The position numbers were made by a program, and so were the translations under genes. Below, in pieces: positions 60,955 to 64,000 of a stretch of DNA of 64,000 bases. The stretch spans positions 2,053,092 to 2,117,091 of the forward strand of contig NZ_KB913031.1 in assembly GCF_000384155.1 (NCBI RefSeq), read 5' to 3'. Within the stretch, counting starts at the first letter, position 1, and each line of letters begins with the position of its first letter. A model generated the notes under the pieces. That model was not told the DNA's origin. It made no database searches and saw nothing but the letters and a program-made list of their open reading frames with translations. Source of the DNA: Methylophilus sp. 42. Lineage in GTDB: Bacteria; Pseudomonadota; Gammaproteobacteria; Burkholderiales; Methylophilaceae.

Positions 60955-61257
60955 CTACGCAGATCGCTGCCAATAAATCCGCCAGATAATGCTCATAATC
61001 AGCCCACCCAGGGATAGGCAGACATCAGTAATTTTTGGAATATCCCACATCGCCACACCGTAATAGTGCTTGAGCAAAGCCTGATTCAAGGCTTTCACCG
61101 CTTGCGGGTTGGCAAAGTCTATCGAATCATCGCCATAAGCATTTGGACGGACGTATTGAGAGAGTGTTGGTTGTGCTTGTACTAGCACTGTGAAATCATA
61201 GCCATTGCGATGCTGATCCCATGGATGCAAGGTTGATGTGGATTACTCAGACTTCAT
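60955..61257 (-). pseudogene. rlmF: decayed 5' remnant of rlmF (23S rRNA A1618 methyltransferase)
   Basis: The frame from a TTG at 61230 reads LHPWDQHRNGYDF, then SIDFANPQAVKALNQALLKH and WDIP, matching the RlmF N-terminus. Between about 61018 and 61040 the frame shifts: the next RlmF-like stretch (IPGWADYEHYLADLLA) continues in another frame until it meets the nadD stop. Upstream, an ATG at 61257 gives MKSE followed by an in-frame TAA, then STSTLHP. The SAM-binding catalytic part is gone. So it is N- and C-terminally damaged, with a deletion junction at the nadD end. Confidence 0.8.
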
Positions 61258-61379
61258 GACACTTTAAAAGATTAAGAAAGCGATTTGCAGAATTATTGAG
61301 ATCTAGCAGAGGGTTACCTAATATTTTACTGCTCGTTATATGATAGTTTAATCGACTCACAGCCTTCAAACTAAAAGAA

Positions 61380-63869
61380 ATGCATATTACAAATTACCTA
61401 ACAGCAGTTCTTGCTAATAAAAAGTGGTTTTGGCAAATAAGAAAATATTTGAGCAAACTATCTTTCTCAAGCAGCAGAGGCATATTAAATTTTAAAAACA
61501 AATGGGCTGAAGAGTATGAAACTTCAAAATACTTTAGAGCAATAATTCCCAATACCTTACCTCAGTTCTTTTTAGCCTTTGCTTCTGCAGTTGTTCTCCA
61601 ATTACTAAATGATCACTTTCAGGACATGTATTCTGTTCTCAAATGGACAGTCTCAGACGAAGGTGTATATGCAACACTGTATGCAACTGTAGCGAGCATT
61701 GGCGCTGTCTTTATAGGTTTGTATTACACAGCAGTAACAACGATAGCAGCTTCAACTTTTGCGAAAACACCTTCAAGTGTTAGAGGGTTGATCTCACGCG
61801 AGCAGATTGGAAATGTATATATCCGCTTTCTGTCATACTTAACAGCGTTATCAATTTTTTTACTTACCTTCCGACTTTTAAACTACGAAGCCGTACTAAT
61901 TTCAATACCGATCGTTGCAGGAATGTCATGTTTTGGAATAATTGCCTTTGTGAAACTTGGGCAAAGAGTCTTTTCCTTCTTTGACCCAATTCAGCTTTCC
62001 AATCATATTTATAGACAATTTGAAGAGTCACTAACGTTAGCTACATCGAATAATGCAAACGCTTTTGACCCCTCCTTTCAAAACTATGCTCAAACCCGAG
62101 CTAGATCAGCCTTAAACTCTATTTCAGATTTGATCAACATTTGCAAATCAGAAAAACACCTTCAAAAAAACTCTCTCACAGATTTAGGCAATCTTGCATT
62201 TAACTTATTAACTCGCTACCAAGACATTAAACACAAAATCCCTCCATCAAGCTTATGGTTTCAGCAAGATACAAAGTTTGTAAAAATTTATCGCCAAAGT
62301 GACTATGAAATACAAATGGCACATCAAACAGCCAATTATGGCTCAACTAATACAGAGTCTAACCATTGGTGGGTAGAGAGCTTTGTCTTTGAACAGCTGT
62401 TTCAAGTATTAGATTTCAACTTAGATACTGAAAACACCCAAGGTTTAGAAAGTTTTGTTAGATATCTAGAAAGAGTATTAGGTGATATCTCTCGATCCGG
62501 GGAAGCCGCTAAATCTATACTTATTTATTCACAAATACTCAACATTAGCATTCCCCACTTCAGTAAGATAAAAGATAAGCGACTCAAGTTAATTTTGTCC
62601 GAATGCTTAGCTCGAATACCTGTAGTAATACTTTTAAAGTTTTTAAATTATTCAGACGAATTGACAAGCATAGATTGGAAGACATCGCTTGCCAAAATCG
62701 CTTGGGAAGATAAAAGAGCAATTTATAAAATTGGAGCTCCTCAACATCTACTTCATACATTGCTTGATTTGAGTAATCGAATGAATTTCGAGATTGATAT
62801 AGAGGGTAAAGTTGTTACGCCAGTTTGGTATTTACAAGAAATAGTTTTTAGAGAATTAGCTGAAAATCTTGCGAAAAATTTTGCAGAAATTTATAACCCT
62901 GTAAAAGGGAAAATTGGAAAACTACTCACTACAATAAATGAGAAAGATGATCCCATTCAAGCAGCTTTGATCGTCAGTGTTTTTAATGAGTTTTTAAACA
63001 AACTAAAAACTCATCAGAAATCATTTGAAGAGTCTTACAGTAAATTAACTCTCCAAAAGAATATTGTCGGTCTACATTGGCCAACTTTGGCTTGTGAACC
63101 TGCCACACTTGCTATTAAAGATATGTCTCAATTAATTGCATTAAATACAGCAAGCTTAAGCGAATGCTTATCTCTCCAAGACTTTGATGAGACACTACCT
63201 GACTTTGCCGGAAGATTTTTACACGAAACAGGCGAAAATATTTTCGAAGCGATTCTGCATAATGATAGTGAATTGTTCGTTGAGTTATTCGAGAAGTATT
63301 TCATTGCCTGCATATTTATGTTTGAAGGGCTTAAACCTGACAACACAATCCCTGAGTTTCGCTTATCAAATGAAGTTAGAGTAGCATTAGGCCCAATAGC
63401 AGATTTAATTACTTTAAGCGGATATGCATTATTATTTTCAGAATTAACTCAAACAGAAATTTATAAGAATATTGTTCATAAAGTTTGGGATACTCACCTG
63501 AAAAAAGAGACGACTACCTCTGAAACATTACAAAATATAGTTCGTATAGCAATACAAATGGGGCTAAATATTACTAATGAACCCCATAGAGGAATGCTGC
63601 GCATGGAGTGGTCTAGAAGAGTTCAGCTACACACGAGAAGAAAATTCAATATCAAGGATAATCAATTTGAATTTTCATTTGAGAAATATTCCATTCCTCA
63701 TGAAAGCGCATTAATTCGAGTTTTCGCTCAGCCAAGAATAATAAATGAATTCACAGGGCTCCATGTTTTTGATGCTTTATATTTTTCCAAACTATTCCCT
63801 TCCGATAATAGTGATTTTTCTTATCAAAACAATCTTCTGGATGAAATAGATAAGGAAAATAAAAAATGA
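61380..63869 (+). CDS. unknown 829-residue membrane protein in AT-rich DNA
   Basis: Four predicted membrane helices near the N-terminus (about 58-76, 98-123, 148-167 and 170-193); the pattern TVASIGAVFIGLYYTAVTTIAAS, then a short loop with a helix of similar type, recalls DUF2254 proteins only loosely. The remaining 630 residues are soluble, helical and without known motifs. AAAGAA precedes the ATG; a TATGAT at 61339-61344 may be the -10. The gene is much richer in A/T than the block before it, suggesting transfer. The next gene overlaps its stop. No function can be stated. Confidence 0.75.
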   Translation: MHITNYLTAVLANKKWFWQIRKYLSKLSFSSSRGILNFKNKWAEEYETSKYFRAIIPNTLPQFFLAFASAVVLQLLNDHFQDMYSVLKWTVSDEGVYATLYATVASIGAVFIGLYYTAVTTIAASTFAKTPSSVRGLISREQIGNVYIRFLSYLTALSIFLLTFRLLNYEAVLISIPIVAGMSCFGIIAFVKLGQRVFSFFDPIQLSNHIYRQFEESLTLATSNNANAFDPSFQNYAQTRARSALNSISDLINICKSEKHLQKNSLTDLGNLAFNLLTRYQDIKHKIPPSSLWFQQDTKFVKIYRQSDYEIQMAHQTANYGSTNTESNHWWVESFVFEQLFQVLDFNLDTENTQGLESFVRYLERVLGDISRSGEAAKSILIYSQILNISIPHFSKIKDKRLKLILSECLARIPVVILLKFLNYSDELTSIDWKTSLAKIAWEDKRAIYKIGAPQHLLHTLLDLSNRMNFEIDIEGKVVTPVWYLQEIVFRELAENLAKNFAEIYNPVKGKIGKLLTTINEKDDPIQAALIVSVFNEFLNKLKTHQKSFEESYSKLTLQKNIVGLHWPTLACEPATLAIKDMSQLIALNTASLSECLSLQDFDETLPDFAGRFLHETGENIFEAILHNDSELFVELFEKYFIACIFMFEGLKPDNTIPEFRLSNEVRVALGPIADLITLSGYALLFSELTQTEIYKNIVHKVWDTHLKKETTTSETLQNIVRIAIQMGLNITNEPHRGMLRMEWSRRVQLHTRRKFNIKDNQFEFSFEKYSIPHESALIRVFAQPRIINEFTGLHVFDALYFSKLFPSDNSDFSYQNNLLDEIDKENKK

Positions 63870-64000
63870 TGAAACGAAAAACATCTCAATCATTGAATTC
63901 TGTAGATTTTGAAAAAGCCAAATCAAAAAGGCCATACTCTACATCAGCATCTATATCCCCTAGTGGAATGTATGCCAATTTTTTAGCACAAGATTTAGGC
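63866..64000 (+). CDS. start of an unknown gene coupled to the membrane protein
   Basis: Open to the right edge, 45 codons visible. The ATG overlaps the previous stop (ATGA). The protein begins MMKRKTSQSLNSVDFEKAK, is basic and Ser-rich, has no signal peptide and no recognisable domain yet. Same AT-rich composition as its neighbour, so a translationally coupled two-gene (or longer) unit. Confidence 0.65.
   Translation, partial: MMKRKTSQSLNSVDFEKAKSKRPYSTSASISPSGMYANFLAQDLG

Follow-up and report, generated by a model that had tools for sequence, protein, structure and literature searches.

The last part of a 64,000-nucleotide stretch of the Methylophilus sp. 42 genome (hereafter the window, G000:C1:2053092-2117091 of a genome assembled as a single contig of 2.97 Mb) carries two overlapping genes, here called A and B, which almost certainly form a two-gene module. 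Gene A, recognized by its open reading frame (ORF), hydropathy and an AlphaFold model, occupies 61380..63869 on the plus strand and encodes a membrane protein of 829 aa. The ATG of gene B, at 63866 on the same strand, overlaps the stop codon of A as ATGA (4 nt), and the first 45 codons of B (63866..64000) lie within the window, the gene running on to G000:C1:2117931. An earlier note on the window had described the 829-residue frame, the ATGA overlap with a second gene leaving the window and a drop in composition after a remnant of rlmF, all of which hold. When the contig is followed past position 64000, in the continuation designated L003, the partner is a complete gene of 324 aa (L003:4958-5932, corresponding to C1:2116957-2117931). 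The GC content is 0.34-0.39 per kb in the last 3 kb of the window versus 0.42-0.58 in the first 61 kb; over the A-B pair, it is 0.31-0.37 per 500 bases, and it regains 0.53 about 0.6 kb past the end of B. Promoter and terminator scans predicted about as many sites as in shuffled sequence. Searches of Pfam, NCBIfam, PADLOC and PHROGs, in library versions dating from 2023 to 2026, gave no significant match for A or B.

Protein A is predicted to be an inner-membrane protein with four transmembrane helices and a large helical cytosolic scaffold of ~620 aa. The membrane region spans residues 55-200 (61542..61979, plus strand), and both hydropathy and the AlphaFold model bear out the four N-terminal helices that had been read from the sequence. 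Hydropathy averaged over the family shows peaks at residues 59-75, 103-119 and 152-189, the last being double-length with room for two helices, and the model places helices at residues 55-87, 94-126, 142-166 and 175-200. The N-terminus is probably cytosolic, because residues 1-56 are rich in lysine and arginine (10 K+R) over aspartate and glutamate (3 D+E). In the family alignment, the most conserved transmembrane motif covers residues 107-116 (IGAVFIGLYY here; 61698..61727, plus strand), in the second helix, with G108 and F111-Y116 unchanged in every one of the 11 A sequences. A further motif, LGQR-F--FDP--LS, follows the fourth helix at residues 193-207 (61956..62000, plus strand), and its F198, F201-P203, L206 and S207 are likewise invariant in all 11. 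The soluble part, residues 203-829 (61986..63866, plus strand), appears almost all-helical and solenoid-like by the model and by Foldseek. The model, computed from 11 sequences (predicted local distance difference test, pLDDT, 79.9; predicted template modelling score, pTM, 0.69), is helical past the membrane part apart from two short strands (295-300 and 323-328). The 50 PDB matches listed by Foldseek for A are mostly helical-repeat proteins, with template modelling (TM) scores by query of 0.08-0.21, and the sole match below E 0.001 among them is a designed helical assembly. No function follows from this fold search, which returned nothing convincing, and the soluble part remains, as the earlier note had it, 'unannotatable', with no significant library match.

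The main new fact concerns B, most of which lies beyond the window: the protein very likely has the fold of a tailed-phage portal, as judged from a predicted structure of its family. The model was computed by AlphaFold from nine sequences, with the protein of a relative (locus L013) as the first row (pLDDT 83.2, pTM 0.81), and the window's B is tied to this partner family by a profile match at E 1.3e-54. A Foldseek search of the model against the PDB gave 139 matches up to E 10, the best 50 of which are all tailed-virus portal, neck, connector or tail-complex (7y1c only) entries. The matches listed include the G20c, lambda, HK97, SPP1, 80alpha and Avs4-bound portals, the names being those of entry titles, and for neck and tail entries the matched chain is assumed to be the portal. 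The best match, 6ibg, was found at E 7.3e-4 with probability 1.00. Against BFVD, 35 of the best 50 rows carry a name, of which 23 read 'portal' and eight 'COG4695 Phage-related protein'. The evidence for a portal is thus one predicted model, at the level of fold and with a TM score by query of at most 0.52. In sequence, the Pfam portal models had no match in any of the nine B members tested, the PHROG portal model reached E 0.52 in one of the nine, and a PDB sequence search with the A and B profiles gave nothing below E 0.01. Descent of B from portals is therefore not proven, the claim being one of predicted fold with weak sequence similarity. B proteins measure 278-339 aa versus 344-533 aa in the 11 portals compared (two of these cut), and since B is shorter than every portal compared, some portal parts, the clip for example, are likely to be reduced in it. 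Weak library matches to F-box_4, HsbA, DUF7342 (E 0.0035, in one of nine members), UBA_4 and NAGLU_N were taken as chance, those to F-box_4 and HsbA scoring below their own cut-offs.

The pair recurs widely and always together. It is found at 17 distinct loci, in Pseudomonadota, Paenibacillus plasmids, metagenome-assembled genomes (MAGs) of Poribacteria and others, with A followed by B in the same order in 17/17; chance association is excluded because 16 further loci hold the same pair. A tblastn search of 72,556 plasmid records with A yielded three full-length relatives (27.8-28.2% identity, E 9e-94 or better), on a Burkholderia glumae plasmid and two Paenibacillus plasmids, each with B directly downstream, and a separate search with B returned exactly the same three records. 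The two Paenibacillus records (L008/L009) share protein accessions and enter the count as one locus. At least ten further pair loci came from 84,980 species genomes scanned for two short patterns, a locus being picked up if it matched either one, and whole-genome searches gave the own locus and those of G706, G509, G972 and G1049. Three loci are incomplete: B is cut by the contig end in L012, A is cut at its start in L025, and A of L032 (G972) is split by an insertion whose ORFs (L032:7783-10050) read like an IS21-type transposase pair. The 4-nt overlap of A and B is present in nine of 14 tabulated junctions, also in L012, and in B. glumae if an in-frame upstream ATG is used; the remaining junctions overlap by 1 to ~38 nt with the starts chosen. 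Over the 14 loci left after omitting the incomplete L012, L025 and L032, the identity matrices of A and B are correlated with a Mantel r of 0.958, a value reached in none of 5000 permutations. A B-only profile search of 378 genomes of the phylum gave two matches, both with A.

The module is rare, mobile and sporadic, and it moves horizontally between distant bacteria. Counting the own genome each time, A is present in one of 187 genomes of the family, two of 399 of the order and two of 398 of the phylum, and it occurs in three of 124 genomes of the genus of G706. The absence from 186 of the 187 family genomes rules out a housekeeping family. In a midpoint-rooted tree of 14 rows, a Peptococcaceae MAG (Bacillota) is sister to a Betaproteobacteria MAG with 100/99 support; this placement would fit transfer, with mis-binning possible for two MAG contigs, and cross-phylum spread is firm because the Paenibacillus plasmids are complete records. 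The A of the window sits on a very long branch (2.87), which makes its placement unsure. Such a sporadic, horizontally moving distribution is typical of defence systems. What the earlier note had proposed, a rapidly exchanged membrane-plus-partner module, is well supported by this co-inherited, cross-phylum pattern and by an insertion site shared with AbiU, NACHT, DUF4238 and toxin-antitoxin genes; the gene is not single, the pair is not conserved at this site across the family, and no housekeeping family matches it.

The insertion site is a slot between rlmF/nadD and nrdB. Its left edge, outside the module, is a 5′ remnant of rlmF (60968..61257, minus strand), whose identity was confirmed by tblastn with the genome's full rlmF, which aligns with residues 1-97 in two frames (L003 2349-2060). 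The full rlmF lies elsewhere in C1, near 750 kb (L005:8004-8921), beside a gene reading like YcaO. Full-length rlmF follows nadD in seven of ten relatives, the own genome keeping the rlmF 5′ end there, and the slot was therefore rearranged either at the arrival of the pair or earlier. Of the 22 genomes of the genus, counting the present one, 21 gave a nadD match; ten of the 20 relatives' nadD loci were compared, with both slot ends in view in eight (L068-L075). None of the ten holds the A-B pair, and the slot is a hot spot of exchange in the genus. L068 holds a DUF4238 protein and RES/Xre genes; L069, two radical S-adenosylmethionine (radical-SAM) genes, RES/Xre and a pair reading like Phd/PIN; L071, AbiU (AIPR E 3.1e-39; PADLOC AbiU 493.5 bits), a 481-aa unknown and PemK; L072 (G068), a 958-aa NNH3-NACHT-pentapeptide protein (L072:10292-13168) with no match at E 1e-5 in PADLOC (2023); and L074, RES/Xre alone. 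L070 (G067), L073 and L075 hold none of these families, so that five of the eight fully visible slots contain AbiU, NACHT, DUF4238 or RES/Xre: L073 has a radical-SAM cluster with weak viperin-model matches only, and L075 is without such an insertion. In L076, whose slot is partly in view, an AAA_13 protein matches the PADLOC candidate PDC-S06 at 914 bits. DUF4238 is named among defence systems in PMC12629846.

Two other features of the slot in relatives deserve mention on their own account. The 771-aa ORF of L070 (L070:7947-10262), without Pfam or PADLOC match, is a further candidate unknown at this site. A cluster that recurs at L069:1329-5086, L073:7677-11434 and L077:12127-14001 comprises two radical-SAM proteins and ORFs of 93, 102 and 188 aa (in L077, only the 188-aa ORF and one 385-aa ORF are in view), and resembles a His-Xaa-Ser peptide system.

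On the other side of the pair, ~0.4 kb 3′ of B and just past the window, lie an Xre/MbcA/ParS-type antitoxin gene (Pfam E 1.2e-12, 1.1e-10) and then a RES-domain toxin gene (E 3.3e-31), together at L003:6374-7427 (G000:C1:2118373-2119426). G072, G065 and G074 carry copies at the corresponding position, with toxins of 56-65% identity versus antitoxins of 91-94%. Past the toxin gene follow a 104-aa ORF, a ferredoxin-like ORF, nrdB and nrdA, the last names by reading. A 53-aa ORF on the minus strand between the pair and the RES/Xre genes (L003:6023-6184) resembles the truncated start of a HigA-type antitoxin.

At the 17 loci, restriction-modification (R-M), toxin-antitoxin or PIN genes flank the pair in eight, a count that is partly by reading and without background control. 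They comprise the RES/Xre genes of the own locus, annotated CopG/VapC in B. glumae, a type III R-M system in L013 (PADLOC MTase_III 1387.5 bits, ResIII E 1.2e-6), a type IIG R-M enzyme in L015 (561 bits), PIN_12 in L016 (Pseudomonas fluorescens), an Xre-type antitoxin in L024 (G706) together with genes reading like a Tn7-type transposition set (L024:13237-19464), RelE, PIN and an integrase in L025, and PIN in L032. The helicases near the pair in L012 (MrfA-like) and L014 (UvrD) are not diagnostic; in L008/L009, L010 (almost no flank), L011 (Microbulbifer), L017, L018, L019 and L033, none was recognized in the ORFs scanned. The scan covered 97 of 179 flanking ORFs, hand-picked, and one shorter ORF; its tallies count families rather than loci, with the first 25 families listed, and RelE, PIN, Xre and integrase matches were assigned to particular neighbours by reading of the ORFs. 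The recurrence of the pair near defence genes that the earlier note had raised is thus observed at these flanks, with that reservation, and at the slot of the sister species. In one genus, two of the three members found have a 246-aa unknown gene immediately 5′ of the pair (L024:12284-13024 and L032:6593-7333), perhaps a third component there.

The best explanation of these findings, which we favour tentatively, is a horizontally moving, membrane-anchored module, most likely anti-phage, in which B is a portal mimic that acts as a sensor or decoy. An anti-phage role is somewhat probable in itself; the specific sensor or decoy mechanism is put forward with reserve. In this mechanism, B would sit on the cytosolic scaffold of A and, as bait or decoy, attract components of phage head assembly, whether portal subunits, scaffold or terminase. 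Late in infection, these parts may bind or co-assemble with B, whereupon A would change state. Either the conserved transmembrane bundle of A would then permeabilize the membrane, resulting in abortive infection, or A would keep head-nucleation complexes tethered to the membrane and thereby prevent DNA packaging. The portal of phage T4 is assembled at the inner membrane, and a membrane-bound mimic would therefore be well placed. A narrower and more doubtful version of this idea is that a phage portal was captured by bacteria, coupled to a membrane protein and turned into a bait or poison for phage head assembly.

Several observations weigh against this explanation. The portal fold was predicted for a relative (L013) whose B is ~23% identical to that of the window, the PDB matches have TM scores by query of 0.25-0.52 and root-mean-square deviations of 9-21 Å, and one match only falls below E 0.001. 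An hhalign comparison of 16 B sequences with eight HK97-type portals scored 21.8, a value equalled or exceeded in six of 200 column shuffles (12.5 when reversed), and the B profile against 40 HK97-type portals scored 23.8, with three of 200 shuffles of well-filled columns as high. Both alignments pair the middle part of B with one and the same stretch of the HK97 profile, about residues 100-198; global alignment is unsuccessful, and the lambda, P23-45 and P2 portals taken singly gave nothing. Library scans recognized no catalytic or toxic domain in A, and PADLOC-DB 2.0.0 gave no family for A or B up to E 5. Nine of the 17 loci have no recognized R-M or toxin-antitoxin gene in the flanks scanned or read, and the neighbour enrichment, lacking a background control, is colour rather than a test. 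Finally, both defence and mechanism are inferred from co-inheritance, the slot and a predicted fold.

Among the other explanations, the one that fares best, albeit unlikely, is a membrane-docked DNA gate, in which B would form a portal-like ring on A and the two would make an inner-membrane channel that conducts or blocks DNA, either to keep out incoming phage or plasmid DNA or to transfer DNA. In its favour, the portals known so far are rings that conduct DNA, the transmembrane motif of membrane protein A is invariant, and some of the copies are plasmid-borne or neighbour genes reading like transposition genes. A complete channel is nevertheless doubtful given that no B attains the length of even the shortest of the 11 portals, and the ORF lists read show no recurrent third gene next to the pair, such as one for an ATPase or nuclease. 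Less likely still is a maintenance or stress module of mobile elements, akin to a toxin-antitoxin system, in which A would harm the membrane and B restrain it, and which would share islands with defence genes by chance. Two overlapping, co-inherited genes, several copies of which are near other toxin-antitoxin genes, would suit such a role, whereas both proteins are large for it (829 and 324 aa), scans of Pfam, PADLOC and NCBIfam found no toxin or antitoxin domain in either, and a plain antitoxin would not need the predicted phage-portal fold of B. That the pair is left over from a prophage, or serves some ordinary accessory function at the membrane unrelated to conflict, is improbable, and the prophage remnant was rejected: the predicted fold of B is viral and one copy of A is split by the IS21-type-like insertion, but no terminase, capsid or tail gene was noticed next to any of the 17 copies within the flanks covered (L010 and L012 having little or none), 50,697 phage records gave no match and neither did pattern-limited scans of viral contigs, and reading frames and gene overlaps are kept across phyla.

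The membrane-anchored portal-mimic module that we favour would differ from the systems it most resembles. Kiwa and RexAB are two-gene membrane defence systems, each a small operon encoding a multi-pass transmembrane protein and a soluble partner; A+B differs in having no PADLOC match to any system and in the ~620-aa helical cytosolic part carried by its transmembrane protein. Membership of a known defence family was rejected for the pair, since none of PADLOC, NCBIfam, Pfam and PHROGs gave a noteworthy match. The AbiU, NACHT and DUF4238 proteins of the sister species occupy the same rlmF/nadD-nrdB interval and belong to other families, being alternatives at the site and not relatives of A or B. 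The tailed-phage portals (G20c/P23-45, HK97, lambda, 80alpha and phage 812) are like B in predicted fold; B is shorter and, in contrast to them, is linked to a membrane protein, with no head or packaging genes noticed beside it. Tai tail-interference systems were set aside as relatives, since Tai targets the tail fibre (PMC11364771). SpbK and Avs4 are anti-phage proteins that respond to phage portals (PMC12847820), and portal proteins are likewise central to the recognition proposed here. In SpbK and Avs4, the portal is that of the invader, whereas the present module encodes a protein of predicted portal fold, and a Pfam scan found no TIR or STAND domain in A or B. Among the papers listed by searches of the open full-text literature, subscription papers and preprint servers aside, none was recognized as describing a bacterial system that possesses its own portal-fold component. 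On the basis of the libraries and this literature, A+B is a system unlike any kind named here.

The earlier interpretation is thus partly supported, with defence against phage or stress being what we infer for a module whose exchange and co-inheritance are observed. If the reading is true, a portal mimic encoded by the host would mirror the triggering of immunity by phage portals, and it would be directly testable in a laboratory strain whether the cell uses the phage's own assembly part against the phage.

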